From: Micrococcales bacterium
GTDB lineage: Bacteria; Actinomycetota; Actinomycetes; Actinomycetales; Dermatophilaceae
Assembly: GCA_021287075.1 (NCBI GenBank)
Contig: JAJTBD010000001.1
Span: 1-64,000 of the forward strand
Length of the DNA: 64,000 nt
Reading direction: 5' to 3'
Shown here: piece after piece, positions 74 to 63,778 of the stretch
Layout: each line of letters begins with the position of its first letter
Numbering within the stretch: the first letter of the stretch is position 1
Made by a program: the position numbers and the translations under genes
Notes under the pieces: model-generated
What the model was told of the DNA's origin: nothing
The model's input: the letters and a program-made list of their open reading frames with translations, nothing else
Databases searched by the model: none

Positions 74-1333
74 TCAGCACTTCTCCCAAGAGCCCGAGGA
101 GCTCTCTCGCAGGGTCGAGGTGTGGAAGGTGTTGTAGAGGCCGAGGTTCTGACCCGACCCCTTGGCATAGGCATATCCCAGCGAGTGATAGGCGCGGCCG
201 GCGGTCACGTGCGCGTAGTTGCTGGCGGTGACGCACTGTGCGCCGGGCGAGCTGGTCGAGCTTGTGTTCGACGTGGTCGGGGTCGTCGTCGAGGTGGTCG
301 GGCTCGTGCTGGTGGGGTCGGTCGGCGTGGTGGTGCCGCCGTCGAGCCCGAAGAAGACGACATCGTGGCATGCCGCGCAGACCGTGTCGATGAAGTAGGA
401 ACCCGCTGTGCCGCACTGGTTCTCGGCCGTCCCTGGGTCGACTGCGGTGCCATGGCCCATCCCTGCGATGCGGTAGAGACGGACCTGGCCGTCATACTCC
501 TCCCACGTGACCGCGGAGCTGAGCGATCCCGATGCGGTGGCCGTCGACGGGACGCCATTGGCGTTGGTGAACTGGTCGCGCAGTTCCTCGCCGTTGCGGG
601 GAGCCACCGTCGTGTCCGACTGGCCCTGCCAGACGGCGACCTTGGGGCGCGGACCGGCATAGCCGGCATACCCAGACCGGGCGAGGTCGCCCCACTGGGC
701 CGGGGACTTGTCCGTCCCGGGGCTCATGCACGAGAACGCCGCTGTCATCGAGGTGGCACAGCGATAGGGGATGCCGGCGTTGATGGAGCCACCCGCGAAC
801 TTGTCCGGATAGGCCGCGAGCATGACCGCGGTCATCGCGCCACCGGCCGACAGACCCGTCACGTAGACACGCTTCGGGTCCGAGCCGTAGGTGGCGATTG
901 CGTGGTCCACCATGGCCGCGATGGAGGCGGCCTCACCCTGGCCACGGGTGATGTCGCCGGACTCGAACCAGTTGAAGCATTTGTTGGCGTTGTTGCCGCT
1001 CGACTGCTGCGCCAATACCAGGGCGAACCCATGGCGGTCGGCCATCTCGCGCCAGCCCGACCCGGCGAAGTAGGTGGCCGCGTCCTGCGTGCAGCCGTGC
1101 AGCTCCACCACCACGGGCGCGCCGGCGGGGAGTCCGTCGGGCCGGTAGCTGTACATCGACAGCCCGCCGGGGTTGCTGCCGAAGGAGGTCACCTGCTGGA
1201 GCCCGGCAGCGCGTGCCGGAGGCGAGACCAGCACGACGAGGCCGAGCGCGAGCGCGAGGCTGGCCGCCAGAAGTGCCGCCACCAAGGTGGTCGGGCGTCG
1301 CAGGATGGGCAGGACGGACACGTGCTCGGTCAT
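74..1333 (-). CDS. secreted PHB depolymerase-family esterase
   Basis: A 419-aa secreted alpha/beta-hydrolase of the extracellular poly(3-hydroxybutyrate) depolymerase/LpqC family, expected to hydrolyse polyester or other ester substrates outside the cell. The start at 1333 is preceded by GGAGGT about 7 bases upstream; longer in-frame extensions give no better signal. Residues 1-43 form a signal peptide with two arginines, a long hydrophobic core and an ARAA cleavage site. The family block VELHGCTQ lies near residue 76, and the nucleophile box GLSAGG near 160-165 (Ser about 162). A Gly-His pair in GMGHG further on is the likely catalytic His. A Thr/Ser/Pro-rich linker (about 335-365) leads to a 55-residue C-terminal module starting CVTASNYAHV, of the type found in PHB depolymerases and probably substrate-binding. 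Substrate is inferred from family only. Confidence 0.85.
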   Translation of the reverse strand: MTEHVSVLPILRRPTTLVAALLAASLALALGLVVLVSPPARAAGLQQVTSFGSNPGGLSMYSYRPDGLPAGAPVVVELHGCTQDAATYFAGSGWREMADRHGFALVLAQQSSGNNANKCFNWFESGDITRGQGEAASIAAMVDHAIATYGSDPKRVYVTGLSAGGAMTAVMLAAYPDKFAGGSINAGIPYRCATSMTAAFSCMSPGTDKSPAQWGDLARSGYAGYAGPRPKVAVWQGQSDTTVAPRNGEELRDQFTNANGVPSTATASGSLSSAVTWEEYDGQVRLYRIAGMGHGTAVDPGTAENQCGTAGSYFIDTVCAACHDVVFFGLDGGTTTPTDPTSTSPTTSTTTPTTSNTSSTSSPGAQCVTASNYAHVTAGRAYHSLGYAYAKGSGQNLGLYNTFHTSTLRESSSGSWEKC

Positions 1334-1477
1334 CGGGACCTCCGGTGCTCGGCGGCGTCCTCGTTGACACCGCTGCGCATCACCGTGTCGTGCCTCGGGT
1401 GGCACCTTCGATGGTGTCGGACACCAGAGATGGCCTGTGCGCGGTGTGAGCACCACTCACCCGCAAGGCCGGACGAG

Positions 1478-2680
1478 CTAGTCCCTGTGGGTCTCGCCGG
1501 GGAGGGCGAGCATCTGGTCGAGGGCGACGCGGGCATAGTGCGCCACCTGCTCGTCAACGACGATCGGGTTGACGACCCGGCCGGAGTCAAGCGACTCCAG
1601 CGCCCAGACGAGGTGGGGGAGGTCGATGCGGTTCATGGTGGAGCAGTAGCAGACGTTCTTCTCCAGGAAGGCGATCTGCTGGTCGGGGAACTGCTCACCG
1701 AGCCGCTGGACGAGGTTGAGCTCGGTGCCGACGACCCATCTGGTGCCGGCCGGGGCGGCGGCGATGGTCTTGATGATCTTCTCGGTGGAGCCGACCTCGT
1801 CGGCGAGCTCGACGACCTCGTGACGGCACTCGGGGTGGACGATCACCTTGACTCCGGGGATCTCGCGCCGGGCCTGCTCGACCGCCTCGACGGTGAAGCG
1901 GCCGTGCACCGAGCAGTGGCCCCGCCACAGGATCATCCGCGCTTCACGCAGCTGCTCGAGGGTCAGCCCGCCCATGGGACGGTGCGGGTCCCACACGACG
2001 CAGTCTTCGAGCGAGCCACCGAGGTCGCGCGCCCAGGTGTTGCGGCCGAGGTGCTGGTCGGGGAGGAAGAGCACCTTGCCAGTGCCACCCTCGACCTGGC
2101 CGTCGCCAGCCTGCGAGAACGCCCATGACAGAGCGGTTTTGGCGTTGGACGAGGTGCAGATCGTGCCGCCGTGCCGGCCGGTAAAGGCCTTGATCGCTGC
2201 GGAGGAGTTCATATAGGTCACCGGGATCGTGTCGGCCGCGATGCCGGCCTCCTCGAGCTGCTCCCAGCAGTCCTCGACCTGGGCGATCGCGGCCATGTCG
2301 GCCATCGAGCAGCCCGCGGCGAGGTCGGGCAGGATGACCGTCTGCGCGTCGGAGGTGAGGATGTCGGCCGACTCGGCCATGAAGTGCACGCCGCAGAAGA
2401 CGATCCACGGCGAGTCGGGCCGCGCGGCCGCCTCCTTGGCGAGCTTGAACGAGTCGCCCGTGACATCGGCGAACTCGATGACCTCGTCGCGCTGGTAGTG
2501 GTGGCCGAGCACGAACACCTTGTCGCCGAGGCGCTCCTTGGCGGCGCGGGCACGCGCGACCAGCGCCGGGTCGGAGGCCGGTGGCAGGTCGCCGGGACAC
2601 TCGACGCCGCGCTCGGTGCGCAGGTCGGTGCCGGCCCCGAGGGCGAGCAGGGGCAGGGGGCGGCTGGTGTCGGTGCTCAC
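1478..2680 (-). CDS. nadA: quinolinate synthase NadA
   Basis: A 400-aa [4Fe-4S] quinolinate synthase, condensing iminoaspartate with dihydroxyacetone phosphate to quinolinate in de novo NAD synthesis. The family motifs are complete: VLGHHYQRDEV near residue 57, FCGVHFMAE near 95, AAGCSMADM near 122 (cluster Cys), CTSSNA near 175, a HPEC motif, and CYCSTM near the C-terminus. Start is a GTG with AAGGA about 8 bases upstream. No nadB or nadC is adjacent, so the gene appears monocistronic. It sits just downstream of a strong hairpin that ends the preceding minus-strand gene. In streptomycetes nadA lies near erpA and the ctaCD genes, and the same cluster is seen here. Confidence 0.96.
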   Translation of the reverse strand: MSTDTSRPLPLLALGAGTDLRTERGVECPGDLPPASDPALVARARAAKERLGDKVFVLGHHYQRDEVIEFADVTGDSFKLAKEAAARPDSPWIVFCGVHFMAESADILTSDAQTVILPDLAAGCSMADMAAIAQVEDCWEQLEEAGIAADTIPVTYMNSSAAIKAFTGRHGGTICTSSNAKTALSWAFSQAGDGQVEGGTGKVLFLPDQHLGRNTWARDLGGSLEDCVVWDPHRPMGGLTLEQLREARMILWRGHCSVHGRFTVEAVEQARREIPGVKVIVHPECRHEVVELADEVGSTEKIIKTIAAAPAGTRWVVGTELNLVQRLGEQFPDQQIAFLEKNVCYCSTMNRIDLPHLVWALESLDSGRVVNPIVVDEQVAHYARVALDQMLALPGETHRD

Positions 2681-2701: not shown

Positions 2702-2767
2702 CGCTCACGCGCGGGGGAGGTATGCCGCGCGGCCGGCCCCGCGGCATACCTCGCGCCCGCGTGAGCG
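2702..2767 (-). terminator. long hairpin built from two inverted GGTATGCC words
   Basis: Arms 2702-2728 and 2741-2767 (27 bases each, a few mismatches in the middle) surround a 12-base GC-rich loop. Each arm contains the recurrent word GGTATGCCGC in opposite orientation (2719-2726 and 2743-2750). It lies between the stop of the DUF2723 gene and the nadA start on the same strand, so it most likely terminates the former. No U-tract is visible, which is usual for actinobacteria. Confidence 0.75.
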
Positions 2768-2796: not shown

Positions 2797-4893
2797 TCAC
2801 CGGGTGCCGGCCAGCCCCTTGGTCGCGGCCGCGTTGGTGGGGTCGATGTCCAGTGCCCGCTGGTACCACTCGGCGGCGGCGGGCTTCTGGCCGGCCTTGA
2901 GCAGCTGGTCGCCGATGTTGGACATCGCGGCGGTGTAGGTGTCGAGGATGACCGGCTCGAAGGACACGGTGCGGGGCCGCACCTCGGCCCGGGTGGGCGG
3001 CTCGAACCCGTCGAAGAGCGCGGCATTCTGCCTGGCCACATCGAGCAGGTTGAGGTCGACCTCCTGCTTGACGACATCGGAGCCGAGTCCGCGCGGGGCG
3101 TAGTAGTAGCTGCCGGCAAGGCTGGTGTCGTCGGCGCCATTGATGCTGGTGCCGCCGAGCACATGGAAGGTGCGCTTGGGGTTGGCGTCGAAGAAGGCCT
3201 TGAGGGTCGTGCCGCCCGGGGCGAAATGCGGCCCCGGGAAGACCAGGTCGGGGTGGCGGGCCTTGAGGTTGTCGACATACCACGGCACGGCCAGCAGGGG
3301 AGTGACGACGACGGTGACGTCCGGCCGGACGTTCTCGACGGTGTGCTCATAGAGCGCCGGCAGCGCCGTGCCGTCCCCGGCGACGAGCAGCACGCCGTTC
3401 TGCGGCACCGACTCCAGCACATCCCGGCCGTGGCGCGCCGCGACGTCGTCACCGGCGAGCGAGGTGTGCGGCAGGGCGACGGCGCCGAGGACCACCGCGG
3501 CGAGCAGTCCCGCGCCCGCGGCAAGCCATGGCGCCCGGTCGGCCAGTGCCGGTCTCCGCTCACGCACGGCCTCGAGCAGCCACTGCAGGCCCAGCGCGAT
3601 GGCCGGCGCGAGCAGCACGTGGAACTGGAGGAAGAAGCGGGACAGCACGAAATAGCCATAGGTCGAGATCGCGCCGTTGAGGAGCACGAGCGCGACCGCC
3701 CAGGTGGCGACCCCGCCGAGGGCGAAGCGCGCCCACCAGCCGCGGTGGCGCCACGCCCACACCAGCCCAGCGACGATGAGCAGCCCGGCCACCCCGAAGG
3801 ACGAGACGAACCACCACAGCCGCTCCGGCGCCGAGCCCAGCCCGGACCCTCCGAAGGTGACATCGGTGTAGCCCTCGCGCCGGATGACCGGCCACAGCCG
3901 GCCGATGCTGTCGGGGCGGCCCCAGTTCATCACCGGGTCGCGGCCGGCAGCCCAGACGACGAAGAGATAGGGCAGCAGCCACGAGGCCAGCACCAGGCCG
4001 ATGCCCTTGGTGTAGAGCCACTCGTGCCTGGCCGTGCGCCGGCGCTCGGTCCACCCGAGGTAGAGGATCGCCGGCACCAGCAGCGCGATGTTCTGGTGGG
4101 CGACGAGCCCGAGACCGAAGCACACGGCAGCGGCATACAGCGGCCAGAGCGTGCGCGGGTCGAGCTTCCAGCGGACCAGGAAGTAGACGGTCGCGGCGAC
4201 CGAGGCCATCGCGAACGGGAAGGCCTCCAGCTGGAGGAAGTACTCCCAGACCAGCGGGTTGACGGCGAAGACGAGCGCGCCGGCCGCGGCCACCCAGGGG
4301 TGCGCGCCGAGCAGCCGCCCGGTGAGCGTCAGCAGGAAGACGGTCAGGGCGCCCATGAGCACGGCGGCGAGGTTGAGCCCGAAGGCCTCCGGGCCGGGCA
4401 CCCAGCCGGTGATGTGGCCGAGCACCACCGCGATCGGATAGCCCGGCGCGTGTGGCACGCCGAGCTCGTGTGCGGCAGTGAGGAAGTCGGGGTTGTCACC
4501 CGTGACCGGGTGGCGGGCCGCGGTGAGGACATAGAGCACGAATGCCGCGAGCGCTGCGGCCCCAGCGGCGATCCAGTCGGTGTCGGTATGCCGCGTCCAC
4601 GCGGCGTCCGCGCTCGCCGAGGGCACCCGCCGCTGGCCCGGTCGCCCCTTGGCCGGTCGGGCTGCCGCTGTCGCCCCGGCGCCCTTGGCGGGGGCACCGT
4701 TGGCGCGGGCTGGGGCCGTGGTGGTCGTGGCGCCGGAGGGGGAGTGGCCGCTGCCCGCGCCCCCCTTGCCCTTGGCGTGCTCGGGGTTGGGCGGGCTGGC
4801 CGCGCGGTGCTGCTGGCTGGTGCCCTTGGGCGGTCGGCCGGGGCGGGGCCCGGCGCTCTTGTTCCTGGCGGAGGACTTCTTCTTCTTGGCCAA
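2797..4893 (-). CDS. DUF2723 (GT117-type) membrane glycosyltransferase with C-terminal TPR
   Basis: A 698-aa polytopic membrane protein. Residues 1-100 are a basic, Ala/Pro/Gly-rich cytoplasmic tail beginning with a KKKK run. About ten hydrophobic segments follow. The first extracytoplasmic loop carries the DUF2723 signature GDNPDFLTAAHELGVPHAPG (Asp/Glu-rich plus PHAPGYP), typical of GT-C-fold lipid-linked sugar transferases related to TMEM260. The last ~45 residues form a single tetratricopeptide-like helix pair (QKPAAAEWYQRALDIDP). The start is a TTG at 4893 without a clear ribosome site, so it is less certain. Donor and acceptor are unknown; DUF2723 relatives act in O-mannosylation or surface glycan assembly. 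Confidence 0.8.
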   Translation of the reverse strand: MAKKKKSSARNKSAGPRPGRPPKGTSQQHRAASPPNPEHAKGKGGAGSGHSPSGATTTTAPARANGAPAKGAGATAAARPAKGRPGQRRVPSASADAAWTRHTDTDWIAAGAAALAAFVLYVLTAARHPVTGDNPDFLTAAHELGVPHAPGYPIAVVLGHITGWVPGPEAFGLNLAAVLMGALTVFLLTLTGRLLGAHPWVAAAGALVFAVNPLVWEYFLQLEAFPFAMASVAATVYFLVRWKLDPRTLWPLYAAAVCFGLGLVAHQNIALLVPAILYLGWTERRRTARHEWLYTKGIGLVLASWLLPYLFVVWAAGRDPVMNWGRPDSIGRLWPVIRREGYTDVTFGGSGLGSAPERLWWFVSSFGVAGLLIVAGLVWAWRHRGWWARFALGGVATWAVALVLLNGAISTYGYFVLSRFFLQFHVLLAPAIALGLQWLLEAVRERRPALADRAPWLAAGAGLLAAVVLGAVALPHTSLAGDDVAARHGRDVLESVPQNGVLLVAGDGTALPALYEHTVENVRPDVTVVVTPLLAVPWYVDNLKARHPDLVFPGPHFAPGGTTLKAFFDANPKRTFHVLGGTSINGADDTSLAGSYYYAPRGLGSDVVKQEVDLNLLDVARQNAALFDGFEPPTRAEVRPRTVSFEPVILDTYTAAMSNIGDQLLKAGQKPAAAEWYQRALDIDPTNAAATKGLAGTR

Positions 4894-5006: not shown

Positions 5007-6170
5007 ATGCGTGTCCTGATCGCTCCCGACTGCTTCACCGGCACCCTCACGGCCGGCCAGGCCGCCGAGGCGATGGCACAGGGGTGGCGCGCGGCCGCCC
5101 CCCACGACGACGTGGTCGCCCAGCCGATGTCCGACGGAGGCCCCGGCTTCCTCGACGTCCTCGCCGGCGCACTCGACGGCCAGACGCTGTCGGTGACAGT
5201 GGCCGACCCGCTCGGGCGACCGGTGCCCGCAGGGGTGCTGATGGTGGGGGAGGGCGGCGAGCGCACGGCATACCTCGAGTCGGCGCAGGCCGCGGGTCTG
5301 CATCTGCTTGCGGACGACGAGCGCGACCCGGGCGTCACGGGCACCACCGGCGTGGGCCAGCTGGTCGCCGCCGCGCTGGAGGAGGGCGTCCGACGCATCG
5401 TGATCGGGCTGGGCGGCTCCGGCACCAACGACGCGGGGATGGGCGCGCTGTCGGCGCTCGGCGTCGGGCCGGCCGACCGGCTCGGCCGGGGCGGACTCGC
5501 CCTCGCCGACCTCACGCCCGACGACCTCGCCGGTCTGGCCCGGGCGCGGGAAAGACTCGCCGGGGTCGACCTGCGCGTGGCCACCGACGTCGAGGCCCCG
5601 CTGCTCGGGCTGCACGGCGCGAGCTATGGCTTCGGCCCGCAGAAGGGCGCCAGCCAGCAGAGGGCGCAGGACCTCGAGCGGGCCCTCGGCCACGTCACCG
5701 ATGTGGTGGCGCGGGCACTGCCACCGCAGACCGACCTGCTCACCGGCCGCCCCCGGCGCCTGGACACCACTCCTGGCGCGGGGGCGGCGGGCGGACTCGG
5801 CTATGGCCTGATGCTGCTGGGCGGCCGCCGTGTCTCTGGCGTGGCGGCCGTGATGGAGGCGGTCGGGCTGGTCGACGGCATCCGCGGCGCCGACCTGGTG
5901 GTGACTGGGGAGGGGACCTTCGACTGGCAGAGCCTGACCGGCAAGGTCGTCTCCGGCGTCGCCGAGACCGCCACCGCCGCGGCCGTTCCGTCGGTGGTCA
6001 TCGCCGGGCACGCGCTCGTCGGCCGCCGCGAGGCGATGTCGGTGGGCCTGGCCGGTGTGTATGCCGTGGCCGAGACCCCCGAGCAGGTCGCGGCCGCCCT
6101 CGACGACCCGGCCGGCACCCTGGCCGCGCGCACCGGCCGCGTCGCGCGGACATGGTCGCCGGGACGCTGA
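5007..6170 (+). CDS. glxK: glycerate kinase (GarK/GlxK family)
   Basis: A 387-aa glycerate 2-kinase family protein that phosphorylates D-glycerate to feed glyoxylate or serine-derived carbon into glycolysis. The N-terminus MRVLIAPDCFTGTLTA matches the family APDSFKG(S/T)L block, with a Cys in place of the usual Ser and Thr in place of Lys. MSDGGPGF (about residues 41-48) and GLGGSGTNDAGMGAL (about 134-148) are the conserved glycine-rich segments, and GEGTFDWQ near 303 is the C-terminal signature. There is no Shine-Dalgarno; a TAGGCT -10 element ends 6 bases before the ATG, so the message is probably leaderless. Confidence 0.92.
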   Translation: MRVLIAPDCFTGTLTAGQAAEAMAQGWRAAAPHDDVVAQPMSDGGPGFLDVLAGALDGQTLSVTVADPLGRPVPAGVLMVGEGGERTAYLESAQAAGLHLLADDERDPGVTGTTGVGQLVAAALEEGVRRIVIGLGGSGTNDAGMGALSALGVGPADRLGRGGLALADLTPDDLAGLARARERLAGVDLRVATDVEAPLLGLHGASYGFGPQKGASQQRAQDLERALGHVTDVVARALPPQTDLLTGRPRRLDTTPGAGAAGGLGYGLMLLGGRRVSGVAAVMEAVGLVDGIRGADLVVTGEGTFDWQSLTGKVVSGVAETATAAAVPSVVIAGHALVGRREAMSVGLAGVYAVAETPEQVAAALDDPAGTLAARTGRVARTWSPGR

Positions 6171-6713: not shown

Positions 6714-6731
6714 ATCTGTATGCCGCGGTGC

Positions 6732-8771: not shown

Positions 8772-9479
8772 GTGAGCCGCGTGCCGACCCCGCCCCGGGA
8801 GCTGCCGTTCCCGCCGGTCGAGCCGCCGCCCACGCGGTGGGACCTGCCCACCCCCCAGCCCGACGACGATGACCTCGTCTCGCTGGGAGGTGACCTGCGG
8901 CCCGGGACGCTGCTCGCGGCATACCGCCGGGGGCTGTTCCCGATGGGGCTGGGCCAGCACGGCGCCCCGCCCATCGGCTGGTGGTCACCGGCGCCTCGGG
9001 GCGTGCTCCTGCCCGGTGGCTTCCACCTCAGCAGGTCGCTGCGCCGCTCGCTGCGGCGCTTCGAGATCACCGCCGACCGTGCCTTCGCCGAGGTAGTGCG
9101 TGGGTGCGCCGACCCCTCGAGGGACGGGCGGTGGATCACCCCCGCGGTCGCGGACGCCTACCGCCGCCTCCATGACCTCGGCTGGGCTCACAGCATCGAG
9201 GTGTGGGAGGGCGGGGAGCTGGTGGGCGGGCTCTACGGCCTGGCCGTCGGCGGGCTGTTCGCGGGGGAGTCGAAGTTCCACCGCGCCACCGATGCGTCCA
9301 AGGCGGCGGTCTGGGGCCTGGCCGAGCGATGCTTCACCGACGGCGACGCGCGCCGGATCATCGATGTGCAGTGGCACACGCCGCATCTGGGCACCCTGGG
9401 CGTGATCGAGCTGCCGCGGGAGGACTATCTCGACCGCCTCGCGTCCGCCCTCCAGGCTCCGCCGCTCGCCTTCTCCTGA
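8772..9479 (+). CDS. aat: leucyl/phenylalanyl-tRNA--protein transferase
   Basis: A 235-aa Aat that transfers Leu or Phe to N-terminal Arg/Lys of proteins, marking them for ClpAPS degradation. Conserved segments: LVSLGGDLRPGTLLAAYRRG (about 35-54), FPM, WWSPAPRGVL, GRWITPAV, HSIEVWEGGELVGGLYGL, and FAGESKFHRATDASKAAV. GTG start 37 bases after adoK, so the two are probably co-transcribed. Length is normal for the family. Confidence 0.94.
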   Translation: MSRVPTPPRELPFPPVEPPPTRWDLPTPQPDDDDLVSLGGDLRPGTLLAAYRRGLFPMGLGQHGAPPIGWWSPAPRGVLLPGGFHLSRSLRRSLRRFEITADRAFAEVVRGCADPSRDGRWITPAVADAYRRLHDLGWAHSIEVWEGGELVGGLYGLAVGGLFAGESKFHRATDASKAAVWGLAERCFTDGDARRIIDVQWHTPHLGTLGVIELPREDYLDRLASALQAPPLAFS

Positions 9480-9602: not shown

Positions 9603-10868
9603 ATGACCGTTCGTCCCCTGACCCTTGTGACCGCGGCCGCGGCATCCGCGGCGCTCGTCCTCGCCTCGACCCCGGCCGGAGCCGATGAGCACGCCATCCC
9701 CGGCACCGCGGGCGCCACGACGGTGACCGACGTCGCCGAGCCGACCCGTCCCGCGTTCTACGAGCCGCCGGCCTCCATCCCCGGCACGCCCGGGACGGTC
9801 ATCCGCACCGAGCCGGCGACCAACCTGCTCGACCCGCTCGGCCTGAGCGCCGCCTTCTATGACGCCAAGCGCGTGATGTATGCCTCGCGCGACCGCGAGG
9901 GCCGGCCCATCGCCGTCACCGGCACCGTGATCGTCCCCCGGGCGCCCTACGTCGGCCTGAGCAGCCGGCCGCTGGTCAGCTACTCCGTCGGCACCCAGGG
10001 CATGGCCGACCGCTGCGCGCCCTCCCGCCAGATGGCCGAGGGCTTCGAATACGAGTCGCTCTTCTTCCAGAACCTCCTCAACCGCGGGTATGCCGTCGCG
10101 ATGACCGACTACCAGGGGCTCGGCACCCCCGGCACCCACACCTACATGAACCGTCAGGTGCAGGGTCAGGCCGTGCTCGACATGGCCCGCGCGGCACAGC
10201 GCCTGGGCAACGGCCTGACCGGCACCAGCCCGGTCGGCTTCATGGGCTACTCCCAGGGCGGCGGTGGCGCCGCCAGCGCCGCGGAGCTGGCCGGCGCCTA
10301 TGCGCCCGAGCTGCGCGTCAAGGGCACCGTCGCCGGTGCCGTGCCCGCCGACCTGGGCAAGGTCGGCGAGAGCCTCGAGGGTGGCCTGTGGGCGACCTTC
10401 CTCGACTTCGCGACCGTCGGCCTCGCCGCCGGCTACCACATCGACATGGACCCGATCCTCAACGACAAGGGCGAGGCCATGGCCCGACAGGTCGAGGGCG
10501 AGTGCGTCTTCGACTTCGCCAAGCACGCCTTCCAGAAGTCCGCGCAGCTGACCGAGGACGGCCGCAGCCTGACCGAGACGATGAAGAGCGAGCCGTTTGC
10601 CTCGGTCATCGCCGACAACCGCATCGGCAACCGCAAGCCGACCGCCCCCGTCCTGATCAGCCACAGCATGCTGGATGACACCATCCCCTATGGAGTCGGC
10701 CGGCAACTGGCCAAGGACTGGTGCGCCAAGGGGGTCAACGTGCGCTTCAGCCCCAACGTCGGCCCGGCCCACGTCGGCGGTATGCCGCCGAGCGCCACCG
10801 AGGCGCTCTCCTTCTTCGAGGCCCGCTTCGCAGGCTTCCCCCAGGTGAGCAACTGCTGGATCCTCTGA
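9603..10868 (+). CDS. secreted lipase (LIP family)
   Basis: A 421-aa secretory lipase of the LIP/triacylglycerol lipase group. The ATG at 9603 has GGAGG about 10 bases upstream and opens a classical signal peptide (residues 1-28, cleavage after PAGA-like). The mature part holds SVGTQGMADRCAPS, MTDYQGLG and the nucleophile elbow GYSQGG near residue 219. A C-terminal acidic motif MLDDTIP and an AHVGGMP motif supply the likely catalytic Asp and His. Cysteines at CAPS, GECVFD and DWCAKG may form disulfides. It ends six bases from the convergent TusA-like gene. Confidence 0.88.
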   Translation: MTVRPLTLVTAAAASAALVLASTPAGADEHAIPGTAGATTVTDVAEPTRPAFYEPPASIPGTPGTVIRTEPATNLLDPLGLSAAFYDAKRVMYASRDREGRPIAVTGTVIVPRAPYVGLSSRPLVSYSVGTQGMADRCAPSRQMAEGFEYESLFFQNLLNRGYAVAMTDYQGLGTPGTHTYMNRQVQGQAVLDMARAAQRLGNGLTGTSPVGFMGYSQGGGGAASAAELAGAYAPELRVKGTVAGAVPADLGKVGESLEGGLWATFLDFATVGLAAGYHIDMDPILNDKGEAMARQVEGECVFDFAKHAFQKSAQLTEDGRSLTETMKSEPFASVIADNRIGNRKPTAPVLISHSMLDDTIPYGVGRQLAKDWCAKGVNVRFSPNVGPAHVGGMPPSATEALSFFEARFAGFPQVSNCWIL

Positions 10869-38602: not shown

Positions 38603-38640
38603 CCACCGCACACGGCATACCGACCGACGAAGGAGACCCG

Positions 38641-42829: not shown

Positions 42830-44706
<1,877 letters not shown>

Positions 44707-48508: not shown

Positions 48509-49117
48509 TCAGGCCCGCTCCGCGCCCAGCCCGCGCTCGGTGCCCCAGGCGTCATAGCGACGGCGCCAACGGCGCACCCGCAGCAGGATGAAGGACAGGG
48601 CGAACAGGCCCAGGACCAGCAGCACACCGGCGATGCCCGCGGCCAGCCAGGGGTTGGCCAGGGCGAGGGTCATCACGCCCGCGACGGTGATGTCCTCGGC
48701 CGTGCTGACGGCGACATTGCTCGCCGGCTCCGGCGAGGCGTTGACGCCCAGGCGCACACCCGACTTGACCAGGTGGGAGACCAGCGCGGTGACACCACCG
48801 GCCGCAGCGGTGAAGGCCGCGTTGAGGTCGGCGTGCTCGTGGCCGATCAGATAGCCCACCGTCGCGCCGACGGCCGGCCGCAGGAAGGTCGAGAGGCCAT
48901 CCCACGCGGAGTCGAGGAAGGGGATCTTGTCGGCGAACATCTCGAGCAGGAAGAGCACGGTGGCCGCGGCGAGCACGTCGGTGCGGCCGAGTGCGCCAGG
49001 CAGGGAGTCGACCCCGGCGAAGCGCTGGGCCAGGCCCATGACGAGCACGACGGCATACGCGTTGATGCCGGCAGCCCAGCCCTGCGTGAAGACGAGCGGG
49101 ATGATCTCGGTGCCCAA
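48509..49117 (-). CDS. DUF4126 family membrane protein
   Basis: A 202-aa integral membrane protein with about five helices: QGWAAGINAYAVVLVMGLAQR, LAAATVLFLLEMFADKIPFLDSAWD, VGATVGYLIGHE, a Gly/Ala-rich AAAGGVTALVSHLVKSGVRLG, and a long C-terminal helix. The FADKIPxxDSxWD motif is diagnostic of DUF4126. The TTG start is required because no ATG/GTG precedes the first helix. Function unknown. Confidence 0.82.
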   Translation of the reverse strand: MGTEIIPLVFTQGWAAGINAYAVVLVMGLAQRFAGVDSLPGALGRTDVLAAATVLFLLEMFADKIPFLDSAWDGLSTFLRPAVGATVGYLIGHEHADLNAAFTAAAGGVTALVSHLVKSGVRLGVNASPEPASNVAVSTAEDITVAGVMTLALANPWLAAGIAGVLLVLGLFALSFILLRVRRWRRRYDAWGTERGLGAERA

Positions 49118-49409
49118 TTCCTAACCCCCGGTGACGCTCGGGCGCGGCCCGGCGGGCCGCTGCTCCGCGGCATACAACAGTGGGGATGCCCCGCTGCTTC
49201 CCAGCGGGCGGCGAGGACCAGGGGGCCGGTCCGCAGACCGGTGGACGAGTGGACCCGGCCGGCGGGCCCGAGTCCCCCTCCCTGGCTCGGGCCCGCCGAC
49301 CGGGCCGGCGATCGCGCCCCCTGATGCGCGACGTCGACCAGCCTGCCGGGGCTCCCGGCCCCGCGCATGAGCGCACGTACTCATCCGCGGGGAGTCGGTG
49401 CGAGGCCGG
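49118..49409. other. 292-base intergenic region
   Basis: Between the DUF4126 gene start and the stop of the membrane glycosyltransferase, both on the minus strand. It contains one GCGGCATAC word (49167-49175). I see no credible reading frame: candidate small plus-strand frames are Pro/Arg/Gly-rich and lack ribosome sites. Confidence 0.5.
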
Positions 49410-52865: not shown

Positions 52866-55800
52866 GCGGTGGCTTCGCCCATCTCCACGTCGCCTCCGGC
52901 TTCTCGATGCGCTATGGCGCCTCGATGCCCGAGCAGCTGGTGGAGAGGGCGGCCGAGCAGGGGCAGCATGCGCTCGCGCTGACCGACCGCGATGGGCTCT
53001 ATGGCGCGGTCCGCTTCGCCCAGGCGGCGACCAAGGCCGGCCTGGCCACCGTCCTCGGCGTCGATCTCGCCGTGGTCGACCCATCGCCGGCTCCCTTCTC
53101 CCACAGTGCTCCCCGCTCCGCGAGGCCCGCTCGCACGCCGGTCCGCGGCGGACAGCTCGTCGACCCCCGCCACCCCCGTGTCACCGCCCTCGCCCGCGGG
53201 GGCGGCCTCGGCATGGGCGTGGGGGAGGGCTGGGCGGCCCTGTGCCGCCTCGTGACCGAGACCCACCTCGGCGGCGAGCGTGGGCGCCCGGTGACCACGC
53301 CCGACCTGCTCGCCCGCTATGCGCCGGGGCTGGTGGTCCTGCTCGGCCCCGACTCCGATGTCGGGCGGGCGCTGCTGCGGCGGCACACCGCCCAGGCCCG
53401 CGGGCTGCTCGCCCAGTGGCAGCGACGGCTGCCGCCCGGGGCGCTCGCGATCGAGGTCGTCTGCCACGGCGGGCCCGAGGGCAGCCCCGCCTCGGTCGGC
53501 CATGCGGCCCGGCTGCTCGGGCTCGCCGACGAGGCGGGTGTGCCGGCCGTGCTCACCGCCGCGGTCCGTCATGTCGGTCGCGAGCAGGCCGCCACCGCAG
53601 ACCTGCTCGACGCCGCACGCCGCCTCGTGCCGCTCTCCTCCCGCCACCTCGACCGGGTCACCGACGCCGGCCACCTCGCCGACACCGCGACGATGGAGCG
53701 GGCCGCGCTCCAGGTGTGCGAGCGGCTGGGGCCCAGCGCCGACGCCCACCGCGCCGGTCCCGCAGACCGGGCCCGCCGGCTGATCGCCGACACCCTGGCC
53801 CTCGCCGACGGCTGCACGCTCGACCCCCGCGCCGACCTCGGCATCGGCTCGGTCCACCTGCCCGAGCCCGGGGTCCTCGGCATCCGCCCCGGCCAGGATC
53901 CCCAGCAGGTGCTCCAGGAGCGCTGTGCCGCAGCGATATCGAGGCGATACCCGCACGCCGACGCAGCCCTGCGGCATACCGTCGAGCAGCGGCTGCGCGA
54001 CGAGCTCGACACGGTCGCCCAGCTCGGCTACGCGACCTACTTCCTCGCGGTCGCAGCCGTCACCGACCTCATCCGCGACATGGGGGTGCGCGCGGCAGCG
54101 CGGGGCTCCGGCGCGGGCAGCCTGGTCAACTACCTCCTCGGCATCTCCGGGGTCGACCCGGTGCGCTATCACCTGCTCATGGAGCGCTTCTGCACCCCAC
54201 TGCGCGCGCAGCTGCCCGACATCGACGTCGACGTCGAGTCGGCCCGGCGCACCGAGGTCTATGAGCGCATCCTCGAGCGCTTCGGCGGCGACCGGGTGAC
54301 CTGCGTGTCGATGATGGACACCTACAAGGTGCGCCATGCCGTGCGCGACGCCGGCTCCGCCCTGGGCATGGACCCCGTCGAGATCGACGAGATCGCAAAG
54401 GCCTTCCCGCACATCCGTGCCCGCGACGCCCGCCAGGCCATCCTCGACCTGCCAGAGCTGCGCGCCCGTGGTCTGGACTCGCCCCGGCTGGAGCGGCTGC
54501 TCGACCTCGTCGAGAGCCTCGACGGGCTGCCCAGGCATGTCGCCCTCCACCCGTGCGGGGTGATCCTGTCCAACTCCGGCCTGCTCGACCGCACCCCCGT
54601 CGAGGCGAGCTGGCTGGGCTTCCCGATGAGCCAGTTCGACAAGGACGACGTCGAGACCCTCGGGCTGCTCAAGCTCGACATCCTCGGCATCCGCATGCAG
54701 TCGGCGATGGCCCATGCCGTCGCCGAGGTCGAGCGGGTCGACGAGGTGCGCATCGACCTCGACGACCAGGCCCAGGTGCCGCTCGACGACGAGGAGACGT
54801 ATCGGCTCATCCGCACCACCCACACCCTCGGGTGCTTCCAGATCGAGAGCCCCGGTCAGCGGGAGCTCATCGGCAAGTTCGGGCCGGTGCGCTTCGAGGA
54901 CCTGATCATCGACATCTCGCTCTTCCGGCCGGGCCCGGTCAAGTCCGACATGATCAACCCCTTCCTGCGGGCCAGACACGGCTGGGACGAGCCCGACTGC
55001 CTCCACCCGCGGCTGGTCTCCGCCCTCGCCGAGACCGAGGGGGTCGTGGTCTTCCACGAGCAGATCCTGCTCATCGTCGCCGAGACGACCGGCGTCAGCC
55101 TCGCCCAGGCCGACGAGGTGCGCCGGGCCCTCGGCACCCCCCAGGGCCAGGACGAGATCGAGGCCTGGTGGCGCCCCGCCGCCCGCGCCCGCGGCTACAC
55201 CGCGTCCGAGCGCGACCGCATCTGGGAGGTGCTGCGCTCCTTCGCGTCCTTCGGCTTCTGCAAGGCCCATGCCGCGGCCTTCGCGCTGCCGACCTATCAC
55301 TCGGCCTGGCTCAAGACCCACCACCCGGCCGCCTTCCTCGCCGGCGTGCTCACCCACGACCCGGGGATGTATCCCAAGCGGCTCATCCTCGATGACGCCC
55401 GCAGCCTCGGCATCGCCGTCCTCGGGCTCGACGTCAACCGCTCCGACGGCACCTATCGCATCGAGCGGGTCGAGCCAGGCTCCCAGCCGCCGCACCAGCG
55501 GCTCGCCCCGGTCGTGCCCGCCCGCCCGCAGCGGCCGGACCTGCCCGACGGCAGCGCCTATGGCATCCGCCTCTCCTTCGCCGATGTCAAGGGGATGAGC
55601 GAGGCCGAGATCGCCCGGGCCGTCGCCGGCCAGCCCTATGCCGACCTCGCCGACTTCGTCCGGCGGGCCGAGGTCTCCTATCCGGTGGCCGAGCGGCTCG
55701 TCCTCGCCGGCGCCTTCGACGCCCTGCACGGTGTCGCCGGCACCGACGAGCCCGGCCACCGGGGCCGCACCACCCGTCGCGACCTGCTGCTCCACCTCGC

Positions 55801-57583: not shown

Positions 57584-58834
57584 ATGAGCCGGCGCCAGTT
57601 CGCCCTTCCCGAGCGCGCCGCCGAGGGTCCTCCCGACGACACCGGCTGCACGGTGCTCCATGTCGACATGGACGCTTTCTATGCCTCGGCCTCGCTGCTG
57701 AGCCGTCCGGAGCTGGTCGGCACCCCCGTCATCATCGGCGGGGGCAACCGCGGCGTGGTGCTCTCGGCGACCTATGAGGCCCGCCGCTTCGGCGTCACCA
57801 GCGCGATGCCCATGGGCCGGGCCAGACGGCTCTGCCCGCAGGCGACCGTCATCCGTCCCGACCACGAGCTCTACAGCCAGATCTCCAAGGCGGTCATGGC
57901 CACCTTCGCCTCGATCACCCCGCTGGTCGAGCCGCTCTCGCTCGATGAGGCCTTCCTCGACGTCTCGGGTGCGATCCGCAGGCTGGGCCCGCCCGCCCAG
58001 ATCGCCCAGCAGATCCGCGACGCAGTCCACGACGAGCAGGGCATCACCTGCTCGGTCGGTGTCGCGCCGACCAAGTTCGTCGCCAAGCTCGCCTCGGGGC
58101 TGGCCAAGCCCGATGGGCTGGTCGTCGTCCCCGTCGACGAGGTCGTGCCCTTCGTCCAACAGCTGCCGGTGGGTGCGCTGTGGGGGGTGGGCGATCGCAC
58201 GGAGGAGGCCCTCCTGCGCCTGGGGCTGCACACCGTCGCCGACATCGCCCACACCCCCGTCGAGACGCTGCGCCGCGGGCTCGGCGAGGCGATGGGCAGC
58301 CAGCTGCACGAGCTGTCCTGGGCCCGCGACCCCCGCCGGGTCGAGCCGGTCCACCGCGAGAAGTCCATCGGCGCCGACGAGACCTTCCCCTACGACGTCG
58401 ACGACCCGGCATACATCCACCGCGAGTTGCTGCGCCTGAGCGACCGTGTCGCCGCCCGGCTCCGCTCCGCCGGGATGATGGGGCGCACCGTCTCGATCAA
58501 GGTGCGCTTCGCCGACTTCACCACGATCACCCGCAGCAGGACCCTGCGCGACCCCACCGATGTCAGCCGCGACATCCTGGCGACGGCACGGTCCCTCTAT
58601 GACGCGCTCGGCCTCCAGCGGGCCCGCATCCGCCTCGTGGGGGTGCGTGTCGAGGGCCTCCTCGACGCCGAGCGGGCGCCCATCCAGGGCCTGCTCGACG
58701 AGCCCGACCACGGCTGGCGCGAGGCCGACCGGGCGGTCGACCTGGCCTCGCGGCGCTTCGGCGCGGGCAGCGTCCGGCCGGCCAGCCTGATCGACCGCAA
58801 GGACGACCAGGGCGGGCCCGCCGCCGGGGGATAG
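57584..58834 (+). CDS. dinB: DNA polymerase IV (DinB, Y family)
   Basis: A 416-aa translesion polymerase. Catalytic residues intact: LHVDMDAFYAS (first Asp, about 24-34) and EPLSLDEAFLDVSG (Asp-Glu pair, about 117-130). YEARRFGVTSAMPMGRARRLCP and CSVGVAPTKFVAKLASGLAKPDG complete palm and fingers. The little finger has REKSIGADETFPYDV. No clear C-terminal beta-clamp peptide, and it is not an ImuB (whose catalytic acidic residues are lost). A hairpin overlaps its stop. Confidence 0.95.
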   Translation: MSRRQFALPERAAEGPPDDTGCTVLHVDMDAFYASASLLSRPELVGTPVIIGGGNRGVVLSATYEARRFGVTSAMPMGRARRLCPQATVIRPDHELYSQISKAVMATFASITPLVEPLSLDEAFLDVSGAIRRLGPPAQIAQQIRDAVHDEQGITCSVGVAPTKFVAKLASGLAKPDGLVVVPVDEVVPFVQQLPVGALWGVGDRTEEALLRLGLHTVADIAHTPVETLRRGLGEAMGSQLHELSWARDPRRVEPVHREKSIGADETFPYDVDDPAYIHRELLRLSDRVAARLRSAGMMGRTVSIKVRFADFTTITRSRTLRDPTDVSRDILATARSLYDALGLQRARIRLVGVRVEGLLDAERAPIQGLLDEPDHGWREADRAVDLASRRFGAGSVRPASLIDRKDDQGGPAAGG

Positions 58835-59097: not shown

Positions 59098-59795
59098 AGA
59101 GCGAGGAGCCCGCGCCCGCCGAGCACCAGGGCCGCCGCGCACACCAGCCAGAAGAGCGCGACCCACACCATGGCGGGCAGCCCCGTCAGCCGGGCGAGCT
59201 GGTCGGCGTCACTGTCGGCGGCCCCCGTGCCCCGGCGCGCCCGCTGGAGCTCGACGACCGAGCGGGGCGCGGCCAGCAGCAGCACCCAGACCATGAGGTA
59301 TGCCGCGGCCGAGAGCAGCTGCGCAGGTGCCAGCCAGGAGAGCGCTCCGACCGCGGTGCCGGTCACCAGCACCACCCACAGCCCATAGAGATTGCGCACG
59401 AGCACCAGCATCAGCGCGCAGGTGAGGACCAGGCCCCACAGCAGGGCCGCGGCATACCCCGCACCGAGCACCAGCGCACCCACCAGGCCCACCAGCGCCG
59501 GAGCCGGGTAGCCCGCGACGAGCGTGGCGACCATGCCCGGCCCCCGCGCCCGGCCCCGCGAGAGCGTGACGCCGGAGGTGTCGGAGTGCAGCCGGATGCC
59601 GCGCAGGGACCGCCCGGCCAGTGCCGCGGTGACGGCGTGGCCCGCCTCGTGGGTGAGGGTGACCAGGTGACGCACCAGGCGATAGCCGCCTGGGCTCCAG
59701 GTCAGGGCCAGCGCGAGCAGGCACAGCACCAGGCTGGGCTGCCACGCGAGGGGAGGGGTGGCCGCTGTCACGCGGTCGAGAAGGTCATCGATCAT
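59094..59795 (-). CDS. M50B-type site-2 protease-like membrane protein
   Basis: A 233-aa membrane protein with the zinc motif HLVTLTHEAGHAVTAALAGRSL (HExxH, about 43-64) in the first helices and about six helices in all. The block SGVTLSRGRARGPG and GYPAPALVGLVGA match the peptidase M50B-like family. It lacks a PDZ domain. A third metal ligand is not obvious (candidate Asn in RNLYG). Function in actinobacteria not established. Confidence 0.82.
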   Translation of the reverse strand: MIDDLLDRVTAATPPLAWQPSLVLCLLALALTWSPGGYRLVRHLVTLTHEAGHAVTAALAGRSLRGIRLHSDTSGVTLSRGRARGPGMVATLVAGYPAPALVGLVGALVLGAGYAAALLWGLVLTCALMLVLVRNLYGLWVVLVTGTAVGALSWLAPAQLLSAAAYLMVWVLLLAAPRSVVELQRARRGTGAADSDADQLARLTGLPAMVWVALFWLVCAAALVLGGRGLLAL

Positions 59796-60043: not shown

Positions 60044-60475
60044 GTGCCGCTGTCGGAGCGTGAGCAGCAGATGCTCGAGCAGATGGAACGAGCCCTCTAT
60101 GCCGAGGACCCGAAGTTCGCGACGCAGATGAAGTCGAGCGTCGACCGGCGGGCCCAGCGCACCCGCTGGCTCATCGGCGGCGTCGGGGTGGCCGCCGGGC
60201 TGGCCCTGGTGCTGCTCGGCGTCAACACGACGATGTGGGTCGGGGCCCTCGGCTTCGCGCTCATGGTGGCGGCCGCGGCATACGCGGTGACCGCACCCCG
60301 CCCGGCCCAGCTGGGCGCCGTGCAGGCCGACGGATCGGTCCGGGCCAGCACCGCCAGGAAGGGCAGGAAGGGCGCGACCGCGGCCCGTCGCCCCGGTCGC
60401 GCGAGCAGCGGCGGCTTCATGCAGCGGCTCGAGCAGCGCTGGGACAGGCGACGCGACGACAACAGCGGCTGGTGA
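60044..60475 (+). CDS. DUF3040 membrane protein
   Basis: A 143-aa protein: PLSEREQQMLEQMERALYAEDPKFATQM is the DUF3040 hallmark, followed by two short helices (WLIGGVGVAAGLALVLLGV and WVGALGFALMVAAAAYAV) and a basic tail. GTG with AAGGAGG upstream. In many actinobacteria this gene precedes mraZ and the division/cell-wall cluster; here a minus-strand gene follows instead. Confidence 0.9.
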   Translation: MPLSEREQQMLEQMERALYAEDPKFATQMKSSVDRRAQRTRWLIGGVGVAAGLALVLLGVNTTMWVGALGFALMVAAAAYAVTAPRPAQLGAVQADGSVRASTARKGRKGATAARRPGRASSGGFMQRLEQRWDRRRDDNSGW

Positions 60476-61446: not shown

Positions 61447-61477
61447 GGTATGCCGCGGCCGGGGTCCGCGGCATACC
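61447..61477. repeat. inverted pair of GGTATGCCGCGG words in a divergent promoter region
   Basis: GGTATGCCGCGG (61447-61458) and its perfect complement (61466-61477) with a 7-base spacer. Unlike the other two paired sites it lies between divergent genes (DUF7455 and the topoisomerase), where a terminator would not be expected. Confidence 0.8.
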
Positions 61478-61591: not shown

Positions 61592-63733
61592 GTGGCACCC
61601 CCCGCCGCCAAGAAGTCGGCCACCAGCAAGTCGGCCTCGGACTACTCCGCCCACCACCTCCAGGTCCTCGAGGGGCTGGAGGCCGTGCGCAAGCGACCGG
61701 GCATGTACATCGGCTCGACCGACGGCCGGGGCCTGATGCACTGCCTGTGGGAGATCATCGACAACGCCGTCGACGAGGCGCTCGGTGGCCACGGTGACCG
61801 CATCGACGTGATCCTCCACGGCGACGGCTCGGTGGAGGTGCGCGACCAGGCGCGCGGCATCCCCGTCGACATCGAGCCCCGCACCGGTCTGTCCGGTGTC
61901 GAGGTCGTCTTCACCAAGCTGCACGCCGGCGGCAAGTTCGGCGGCGGCTCCTACACCGCCTCCGGCGGCCTGCACGGTGTCGGTGCCTCGGTCGTCAACG
62001 CCCTGTCCGCCCGGCTCGATGTCGAGGTCGACCGCGGCGGCAAGACCTATGGCATGAGCTTCCGCCGGGGCGAGCCAGGCTTCTTCAAGGACGGCCCGGA
62101 GGGGCCCTCGCCGGACAGCGAGTTCACCCCCTTCGAGAAGGGCAGCGAGCTCGAGATCGTCGGCAAGGCCAAGCGCGGGGCCACCGGCACCCGCGTGCGC
62201 TACTGGGCCGACCCGCAGATCTTCCTCAAGGACGCCGGCTTCGACGACGAGTCCCTGCGCCAGCGCGCCCGCCAGACCTCCTTCCTGATCCCCGGGCTGA
62301 CGCTCGTGATCCGCGACGAGCGCGGACTGCCGGGCACGCCGGGGGAGACCGGGCCGCACGAGGAGACCTTCCTGCACGACGGCGGGATCTCCGAGTTCGT
62401 CGAGTACCTCGCGCCGGACCCGCACGTCAGCGATGTGTGGCGGCTCCAGGGCAGCGGCACCTTCACCGAGACCGTCCCGGTGCTGGACTCCAAGGGGCAT
62501 ATGACGCCCAAGGAGGTCGAGCGCGAGTGCGGCGTCGACATCGCCCTGCGCTGGGGCACGGGCTATGAGACGCGGGTCAAGACCTTCGTCAACATCATCG
62601 CCACCCCCAAGGGCGGCACCCACCTCGCCGGCTTCGAGCAGTCGCTGCTCAAGGTCTTCCGCAAGCAGCTCGAGCTCAACGCCCGCCGGCTCAAGGTCGG
62701 CGGCGACAAGCCCGAGAAGGACGACGTGCTGGCCGGCCTGACCGCGGTCGTCACGGTGCGCCTGGCCGAGCCCCAGTTCGAGGGCCAGACCAAGGAGGTG
62801 CTCGGCACCAGCGCCGTGCGGGCCATCGTGGCCCGCGTGGTCGAGCGCGAGCTCACCGCCCGGCTGACCGCGACCAAGCGCCACGAGAAGGCTCAGGCCG
62901 GCCTCGTGCTCGAGAAGGTCGTCGCCGAGATGAAGACGCGCATCAGCGCGCGCAAGCACAAGGAGACCCAGCGCGCCAAGAGCGCCCTGGAGTCCTCGTC
63001 GCTCCCGGCCAAGCTGGCCGACTGCCGCAGCCACGACGTCGCCCGCACCGAGCTGTTCATCGTCGAGGGCGACAGCGCCCTCGGCACCGCCAAGCTGGCC
63101 CGCAGCTCCGACTACCAGGCGCTGCTGCCGATCCGCGGCAAGATCCTCAACGTCCAGAAGGCCTCGATCGGCGACATGCTCAAGAACGCCGAGTGCGCCG
63201 CGATCCTCCAGGTCATCGGCGCCGGCTCCGGGCGCACCTTCGATGTCGACGCGGCCCGCTACGGCAAGGTCATCATCATGACCGACGCCGATGTCGACGG
63301 CGCCCACATCCGCACGCTGCTGCTCACCCTCTTCTTCCGCTACATGCGCCCGCTCGTCGAGGCCGGCCGGGTGTATGCCGCCGTGCCCCCGCTGCACCGC
63401 ATCGAGGTGGTCAACCCCGGCGCCAAGAAGAACGAGCTGATCTACACCTACTCCGAGGCCGAGATGCGCAAGCAGGTGGCGGCCCTCAACAAGCGCGGCA
63501 AGAGCATCAAGCAGCCGATGCAGCGCTACAAGGGCCTCGGCGAAATGGACGCCGACCAGCTGGCCGAGACCACGATGGACCCGCGCCACCGCACCCTGCG
63601 CCGGGTCACCCTCGCCGACGCCGAGGCGGCGACGAGCGTCTTCGAGCTGCTGATGGGCAACGAGGTCGCCCCGCGGCGCGACTTCATCGTGCGCTCGGCC
63701 GACCACCTCGACAAGGAGCGCATCGACGCCTGA
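61592..63733 (+). CDS. type IIA DNA topoisomerase B subunit (GyrB/ParE)
   Basis: A 713-aa ATPase subunit. GHKL ATP site: EIIDNAVDEALGG (catalytic Glu about 46, Mg Asn), GRGIPVD-like QARGIPVDIEP, HAGGKFGGGSYTASGGLHGVGASVVNALS (ATP lid). Toprim: LFIVEGDSALGTAKLARSSDYQALLPIRGKILN and IIMTDADVDGAHIRTLLL. A C-terminal QRYKGLGEMDADQLAETTMDP completes it. GTG 61592 with GAAAGG upstream. It carries the EGDSAlGTA rather than EGDSAgGSA sequence. Together with the divergent DUF7455 neighbour, this suggests ParE/topo IV or a second GyrB, not the oriC-linked copy. Confidence 0.92.
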   Translation: MAPPAAKKSATSKSASDYSAHHLQVLEGLEAVRKRPGMYIGSTDGRGLMHCLWEIIDNAVDEALGGHGDRIDVILHGDGSVEVRDQARGIPVDIEPRTGLSGVEVVFTKLHAGGKFGGGSYTASGGLHGVGASVVNALSARLDVEVDRGGKTYGMSFRRGEPGFFKDGPEGPSPDSEFTPFEKGSELEIVGKAKRGATGTRVRYWADPQIFLKDAGFDDESLRQRARQTSFLIPGLTLVIRDERGLPGTPGETGPHEETFLHDGGISEFVEYLAPDPHVSDVWRLQGSGTFTETVPVLDSKGHMTPKEVERECGVDIALRWGTGYETRVKTFVNIIATPKGGTHLAGFEQSLLKVFRKQLELNARRLKVGGDKPEKDDVLAGLTAVVTVRLAEPQFEGQTKEVLGTSAVRAIVARVVERELTARLTATKRHEKAQAGLVLEKVVAEMKTRISARKHKETQRAKSALESSSLPAKLADCRSHDVARTELFIVEGDSALGTAKLARSSDYQALLPIRGKILNVQKASIGDMLKNAECAAILQVIGAGSGRTFDVDAARYGKVIIMTDADVDGAHIRTLLLTLFFRYMRPLVEAGRVYAAVPPLHRIEVVNPGAKKNELIYTYSEAEMRKQVAALNKRGKSIKQPMQRYKGLGEMDADQLAETTMDPRHRTLRRVTLADAEAATSVFELLMGNEVAPRRDFIVRSADHLDKERIDA

Positions 63734-63771
63734 GGCCGCCCGGCGGCGCGGCGCAGACTGCCGGCGCAGGC

Positions 63772-63778
63772 GGCATAC
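63772..63778. repeat. GGCATAC word in gap between topoisomerase and permease genes
   Basis: One of the intergenic single copies of the recurrent word (as GCGGCATAC). The rest of this 148-base gap shows no gene; a purine-rich AAGGGAGGA at its end is the ribosome site of the permease. Confidence 0.6.

Follow-up and report, generated by a model that had tools for sequence, protein, structure and literature searches.

Why does one short word recur dozens of times in a single stretch of bacterial DNA? The stretch, hereafter the window, comprises 64,000 bases (72.4% G+C) of Micrococcales bacterium, a member of the Dermatophilaceae (contig JAJTBD010000001.1, positions 1 to 64,000; positions below are those of the window), and the word is GTATGCC, together with the 9-mer GTATGCCGC. 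Comparisons within this genome and across the family suggest that the word, in full GTATGCCGYG, is probably a DNA uptake sequence (DUS), a self tag predicted to be read by a Tad competence pilus. An initial annotation of the window had estimated about 52 copies of GTATGCC and about 36 of the 9-mer, and our recount gave 53 (25 on the plus and 28 on the minus strand) and 36 (17 plus, 19 minus). Expectation under an order-2 Markov model was 4.65 and 0.62, respectively, and an order-5 model predicted 12.1 copies of GTATGCCGC. In the whole genome (3,556,373 bases) GTATGCCGC occurred 2,311 times (1152 plus, 1159 minus), compared with 35 copies (17 plus, 18 minus) of the reversed word. A sample of 446,952 bases (the 447-kb sample: 22 stretches, namely the window, a ComEC stretch and 20 others) was then set against a synonymous-codon null, in which codons are shuffled while the predicted proteins and codon usage are kept. 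Here, 272 coding copies of GTATGCCG were observed and 30.8 expected; another 132 copies lay within 50.5 kb of intergenic DNA, and density was 0.65–2.15 per kb throughout the 22 stretches. The annotation had proposed a codon or Markov null and a genome-wide count as tests that could refute its observation, and both results therefore speak for it.

Could the word nevertheless have arisen merely from base composition, codon use or a mutational bias? At maximal Markov order (k-2) it is missing from the top excesses, as such an origin would have it; this is because the word saturates its own sub-words, each GTATGC in the window being followed by C (53 of 53). Given the codon-null and genome-wide counts, the scarcity of one-letter variants and the use of a different word by sister genera (see below), we allow this origin almost no chance, and a codon or Markov artefact is ruled out by the codon null together with the dialect swap. 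The informative part of the word is about ten bases long, GTATGCCGYG. The base after GTATGCCG is C or T in 94% of 340 solitary copies, with G next in 77%, and the flanks outside the ten-base motif carry at most 0.21 bits per position. The exact 9-mer was counted 307 times and its one-letter variants at positions 3–8 only 0–6 times each, near or below expectation. Variants above expectation fall at position 2 (GAATGCCGC, 27 observed vs 2.4 expected), position 1 (CTATGCCGC, 20 vs 4.4) and position 9 (T, 77 vs 1.8; G, 18 vs 4.1).

Both strands carry the word evenly, as the annotation had proposed from about 24 vs 28 copies in the window. GTATGCCG is present 196 times on the plus and 210 times on the minus strand of the 447-kb sample, the split is homogeneous among the 22 stretches (chi2 6.2, 21 degrees of freedom), and gene-borne copies are divided between coding (134) and template strand (138). 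A polarity word of the type of Chi or the FtsK-orienting polar sequences (KOPS), already judged unlikely from the window, is thus ruled out by 23 plus- and 28 minus-strand copies of GTATGCCG in the window and by the lack of heterogeneity and strand bias among stretches. The counts per stretch are in fact evener than chance (chi2 6.2 on 21 degrees of freedom), perhaps in part because of inverted pairs.

Of the 406 GTATGCCG copies in the sample, 274 lie inside genes, and density is 2.61 per kb in intergenic DNA vs 0.69 per kb in genes. In the window, 14 of 53 GTATGCC copies fall in the 9.1% to which a simple gene caller assigned no coding sequence (p = 2e-4), which upholds the intergenic enrichment described earlier (some 13 of 52 copies in roughly 7% of the window). 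Neighbours at most 60 bp apart are nearly always inverted (33 inverted vs 3 same-strand; p = 2e-7), and 66 of the 406 copies sit in such inverted pairs, 50 of them intergenic. Density peaks between convergent genes (5.4 per kb) and is lowest between divergent genes (1.9 per kb). Three convergent pairs in the window fold into hairpins, at 2720..2749 (words at 2720 plus and 2743 minus; -39.4 kcal/mol, z -3.65), 17640..17673 (17640 plus, 17667 minus; -45.7 kcal/mol, z -6.69) and 61448..61476 (61448 plus, 61470 minus; -32.3 kcal/mol, z -2.89), and a divergent inverted pair lies within a predicted gene at 41713..41732 (41714 minus, 41725 plus; -25.4 kcal/mol, z -3.13). As the convergent hairpins have no T run (by eye), a terminator function is only a guess. 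The strong folds (-32.3 to -45.7 kcal/mol for the convergent pairs), the mostly intergenic position of the hairpins and their recurring stem interiors would suit a terminator or an element like the repetitive extragenic palindromic (REP) repeats, with gene-end hairpins spread by copying and single words left as debris. Such an origin is very unlikely: just 66 of the 406 copies have an inverted partner within 60 bp, 274 are gene-borne, the solitary copies show at most weak preferences in their surroundings beyond the motif, and words are kept between genomes while their flanks diverge. Repeat-element debris as such is ruled out, as the flanks are not shared among the 340 solitary copies.

How far does the word extend beyond this genome? 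Across 149 Dermatophilaceae genomes, GTATGCCGC counts range from 1 to 2,321, and 87 genomes are word-bearing (at least 90 copies of GTATGCCGC and three times the reversed control plus one). Outside the family no genome exceeded this threshold, neither in an order sample (0 of 229; maximum 48 copies) nor in a phylum sample (0 of 391, including 11 shared with the order sample; maximum 122, in G425, reversed control 82). Among the genomes compared, the source genome alone represents its genus; a single protein places Terracoccus, Knoellia, Janibacter, Phycicoccus, Terrabacter and Flexivirga among its nearest named relatives. Within word-bearing genera, individual genomes can be near-wordless (G068 with 2 and G124 with 9 copies of GTATGCCGC). 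A tree of LeuS and ComEC from 38 genomes (one FastTree run, midpoint root, drawn without support values; LeuS missing in 6) spreads GTATGCCG over the family as a whole, and the wordless and re-spelled tips fall inside this range.

The re-spelled tips carry what we term dialects. All sampled genomes of two sister genera (3 of 3 in g38, 8 of 8 in g39) contain CGAAGGGRG in 1,452–2,412 copies (reversed control 14–43) and GTATGCCGC in just 2–18, and the remaining 138 family genomes have at most 127 copies of CGAAGGGRG. At the Janibacter terrae locus (L009), CGAAGGGRG is found 9 times in 21.7 kb. A further spelling, GGATGCCGG, is high in seven genomes (656–2,027 copies): G026 (2,027), both of genus g17 (1,068 and 1,040) and all four of g44 (656–1,227); next comes G001 with 351 (reversed control 72). 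Our thresholds credit five of these seven genomes with both words and two with GGATGCCGG alone. In g44, GGATGCCGG coexists with GTATGCCGC at varied proportions (399, 391, 110 and 79 copies of GTATGCCGC), as if a change were in progress. In Flexivirga meconopsidis (G027) the word is GTATGNCG, with A, C or G as the middle base. Dialect words, too, are denser between than within genes in the samples taken (2.50 vs 0.71 per kb in G026, 1.80 vs 0.61 in G137 and 3.09 vs 0.31 in G037), and of the neighbours at most 60 bp apart, 3 of 4, 9 of 9 and 2 of 4, respectively, are inverted. G037 also shows long intergenic C runs, with 48 intergenic CCCCCCCC positions (L102, L169, L170).

Not every genome could be assigned a word. 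By our judgement, none of the top five words was comparably strong in samples of the wordless genomes G010, G041, G009, G002, G044, G048, G028, G124, Arsenicicoccus and Phycicoccus HDW14; codon-null rows of G014 and G019 (5% and 1% called coding) were excluded, and 56% and 57% were called coding in G002 and G003. GTACGGCG in G068 and GTACGCCG in G040 exceed the codon null approximately 4- to 6-fold, and we do not claim them as dialects because unrelated actinobacteria hold similar words, seen at loci of Nocardioidaceae and Kribbella. G056 (L135, L136, L177, L213) has an excess of CGATGSGGG words, which are nearly absent from its congener G008. With CGATGNGGG at 1.01 per kb in intergenic DNA vs 0.76 per kb in genes of G056 (2,785,024 bp) and 3 copies in 41.6 kb of G008, CGATGNGGG/CGATGSGGG is only a candidate for a further dialect.

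Are individual sites maintained? Positional conservation in related genomes, a check that the annotation had suggested, was assessed at ComEC loci in eight of nine g18 genomes and all nine g33 genomes, where aligned DNA is 75–84% identical. The word was kept exactly in 372 of 483 ordered comparisons in g18 (77%) and 390 of 642 in g33 (61%), each pair being counted in both directions, so that comparisons are non-independent. Control windows of eight bases located 10–60 bases away were kept at 21.8% and 23.3%, and further 8-mers matched in composition at 26.2% and 26.4%. Exact retention of 61–77% vs 22–26% in controls thus bears out the conservation of word sites between congeners.

If the word tags DNA for uptake, the genome would be expected to encode the means to read it, and the ComEA, ComEC and pilins that the annotation had wished to see were indeed present, with two tad loci. 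ComEA (SLBB and helix-hairpin-helix domains, above the Pfam and below the NCBIfam cut-offs) adjoins ComEC, which is above its Pfam cut-off and below that of the full-length NCBIfam model TIGR00361. Two pilus-type ATPases are above cut-off in the source genome, and both best match TadA-type models. The first tad locus encodes TadA, two T2SSF proteins (TadB and TadC), a short pilin, TadE, a TadF-like protein (assigned by position, with no family match) and a TadG-like protein, and adjoins an FtsK/SpoIIIE gene. The second encodes a TIGR03819 TadA, a DUF4244 pilin and an Ssd-like protein (below cut-off), with a DECH helicase a few genes away. In Micrococcus luteus, transformation is reported to be abolished by deleting comEC or genes of either tad cluster, tadB excepted (PMC4322843), and tad-1 adjoins an FtsK/SpoIIIE gene (PMC8467076). 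Because an FtsK gene adjoins our first locus, we equate it with tad-1 and the second with tad-2 as predicted equivalents.

Which of these genes tracks the word? A tad-1-type tadA ortholog, whole or split, was found in all 35 word-bearing genera, and the six genera in which it is missing (g7, g14, g15, g42, g45 and g49) are all wordless; the association is significant by genus (p = 8e-4) and by genome (p = 3e-4) in Fisher tests, which ignore kinship. Among the family genomes, no link to the word was seen for tad-2-type TadA (p = 0.73) or ComEC (p = 0.3), ruling out the tad-2-type locus (TIGR03819 ATPase) and the near-universal ComEC (145 of 149 genomes) as genes that track it. Of 38 ComEC loci inspected by tblastn, only that of G048, which is wordless and has no tad-1-type tadA, lacked comEA and the first part of comEC. 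Two tad loci looked unusual: in G068, the one wordless genome sampled in g26, tadC is truncated, and unrelated small genes come after it in place of the expected flp and tadE-G (L272), and in G026, with its 2,027 copies of GGATGCCGG, no pilin gene was called in the corresponding stretch (L265).

In eight genomes, tad-1-type tadA was broken into two complementary pieces that share a contig and are separated by 4 to 79 kb: G007, G134, G121, G145 (Phycicoccus sp. HDW14), G142, G136, G028 and G119 (split-tadA loci L219, L220, L221, L222, L223-L224, L225-L226, L227-L228 and L229; also L230, L231 and L237). The DNA between the pieces looks foreign, and three or more break sites can be told apart, near residues 203–209 (G007, G121, G028 and probably G145), 205–233 (G134, G142, G136) and 293–295 (G119). 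A large serine recombinase lies at most 50 bases from the break in G007, G121, G145, G142 and G136; no such recombinase was seen at the break in G134, G028 or G119. Single pieces were seen in G129 (to residue 297) and G135 (to residue 322), and in G110 tadA residues 106–406 lie beside a tyrosine integrase. For tad-2-type TadA, no split pair was present among the matches listed. Disruption of competence genes by mobile elements has been described in other bacteria (PMC4774983). Words were counted in presumed inserts that total 85.8 kb and come from seven word-bearing hosts (G142 and G136 contributed the ends alone, G135 and G129 a single side). GTATGNCG was observed 10 times vs 50.6 predicted from host densities (P = 4e-12), an approximately five-fold depletion, and the inserted foreign DNA is therefore largely without the tag. 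Inserts of three wordless hosts (30.3 kb) had zero words and were left out of the depletion test.

Retention in place, restriction to the family in our samples and the shortage of copies in inserted DNA would likewise agree with a word for chromosome organisation, bound by a nucleoid-associated or segregation protein and kept by selection on chromosome structure, and so would its presence at 0.65–2.15 per kb in all 22 stretches. Yet wholesale dialect swaps are odd for an architectural site, as is near-absence from single members of word-bearing genera (G068 and G124), strand polarity is absent, and inverted pairing and the tad link are left unexplained; we consider this improbable. A little less probable still is a self mark for restriction, methylation or other defence, where the word either undergoes modification or protects DNA from being destroyed. 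The depletion in mobile DNA and the lineage-specific dialects do resemble defence specificities. However, at 8–10 bases, ungapped and non-palindromic, the word exceeds the usual length of restriction sites, and restriction usually depletes its own site; for a Chi-like role, the expected strand polarity is absent. The annotation had regarded methylation, restriction and chromosome organisation as equally possible as uptake, and had drawn its leading comparison with the word layout of Neisseria and Haemophilus. That comparison is now supported, the dialects, retention, depletion, competence genes and tad link shifting the balance towards a probable uptake role.

As the pattern matches uptake words at every testable point, we adopted an uptake mechanism as our working model. 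Free DNA bearing the word would be captured by the Tad pilus, probably via a minor pilin of the tad-1-type locus (candidate receptors are TadE and the TadF-like and TadG-like proteins), passed to ComEA and imported via ComEC. Import would favour word-bearing fragments and hence DNA of the cell's own kind, and recombination of the imported fragments would keep and multiply the words by molecular drive. Differences in dialect would then act as barriers between lineages, and mobile elements that split tadA may thereby escape removal by transformation. With somewhat less confidence, we favour a broader proposal: that this is a third uptake-word system of independent origin, without precedent in Gram-positive bacteria and read, for the first time, by a Tad pilus; that it is ancestral to the family and was lost or re-spelled several times; that its dialects form a barrier resembling mating types; and that serine-recombinase elements split tadA to block curing by transformation. 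If so, uptake words would evolve repeatedly and would require neither an outer membrane nor type IVa pili, and these would be the first found in Gram-positive bacteria. The sister genera with swapped dialects would offer a fresh system for finding receptors, and the word would predict which genomes of the family are transformable, and with whose DNA.

How does the word compare with known systems? Like the neisserial DUS and its receptor ComP, it is short, present in thousands, found in inverted pairs and divided into lineage dialects, with single genomes that hold two. It differs in its high-GC Gram-positive host, in the Tad pilus genes in place of a type IV pilus and in that uptake is here a prediction. 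The letters ATGCCG also occur within the neisserial 12-mer AT-DUS, probably by chance. In Neisseria, inverted DUS pairs act as terminators, dialects exist and the DUS is absent from recently acquired genes (PMC3630211, PMC2397512), and DUS sites are strongly conserved (Treangen et al., PMC2397512). The uptake signal sequence (USS) of Pasteurellaceae, likewise a short enriched word with variants in a family, is described in a 2025 paper as a highly enriched nine-base core with two variants and a minor pilin as predicted receptor (PMC12616744); it is a different word, and ours has about ten informative bases and weak flanking preferences. The same paper names Neisseriaceae and Pasteurellaceae as the sole families with uptake words; both are Gram-negative. 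No report of uptake sequences in actinobacteria or Dermatophilaceae was among the matches listed in our search, which covered few subscription journals and preprints, and a full-text search for four spellings of the word matched one paper, on Ralstonia typing to judge by its title. The very abundant, lineage-bound short word HIP1 of cyanobacteria, whose function is debated, is palindromic, whereas the word here is non-palindromic and pairs as inverted repeats. Comparable in machinery is the Flp/Tad-dependent transformation of M. luteus, which belongs to a different family and has, as here, comEA, comEC and two tad loci, one adjoining an FtsK/SpoIIIE gene.

Several observations weigh against the word being an uptake tag. 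Retention between congeners and depletion in mobile DNA would fit a word read inside the cell, too. The number of neighbours within 100 bp (41) is close to the Poisson expectation (35.3), the skew being in orientation alone; orientation, not clustering, is therefore what is special. The dialect pairs sampled in G037 (two inverted, two same-strand) lend no support. ComEC is in 145 of 149 genomes, and of the 18 wordless genera 12 keep tad-1-type tadA, so that possession of the machinery does not suffice for the word. Conversely, five word-bearing genomes have no full tadA ortholog (G037, G046, G091 and the incomplete metagenome-assembled genomes G084 and G086), and in some word-rich genomes tadA is split. 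Such absences and splits fit recent loss, but they could instead mean that the locus is not needed. M. luteus needs both tad clusters, yet the word-bearing G004 (99% complete) has no close tad-2-type TadA ortholog (best E 2e-63). The phrase 'uptake sequence' is absent from the two M. luteus papers (PMC4322843, PMC8467076).

Outside the four inverted pairs described above, GTATGCC lies on the plus strand of the window at 4586..4592, 6059..6065, 6718..6724, 9878..9884 (next base T, not G), 10088..10094, 10780..10786, 11810..11816, 17425..17431, 25860..25866, 26317..26323, 31542..31548, 32677..32683, 35359..35365, 37540..37546, 38430..38436, 41524..41530 (next base C, not G), 43698..43704, 45470..45476, 47892..47898, 59298..59304 and 63373..63379. 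Copies on the minus strand are at 665..671, 4132..4138, 5267..5273, 8918..8924, 11881..11887, 18607..18613, 24668..24674, 28327..28333, 29766..29772, 32263..32269, 36255..36261, 38614..38620, 39344..39350, 43414..43420, 44098..44104, 45988..45994, 47189..47195, 49052..49058, 49169..49175, 53973..53979, 58408..58414, 59451..59457, 60277..60283 and 63772..63778. Two word-free stretches do exist, as had been reported, but avoidance of respiratory or highly expressed genes is not established, because neither gap is significant for 53 random sites (gap of at least 6,061, P = 0.26; second gap of at least 5,536, P = 0.056). The word was also said to force rare ATA codons and repeated GMPR peptides; of the 46 ATA codons counted in the 447-kb sample, 22 do lie inside it, but its commonest peptides are AAYx and xYAA.

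Other words in these sequences stood out as well. TTAGCCCA/TGGGCTAA had 8 intergenic and 0 coding copies in the 447-kb sample and may be a regulatory or terminator motif. Intergenic-only octamers were also seen in Terrabacter and Terracoccus (AAGGGCCC, 8 copies; L001, L005) and in Flexivirga (AACCGTTT, 7 copies; L008, L189, L190). In the window, CTAG is strongly depleted (26 vs 129 expected), and CTGCAG is low too (8 vs 32).

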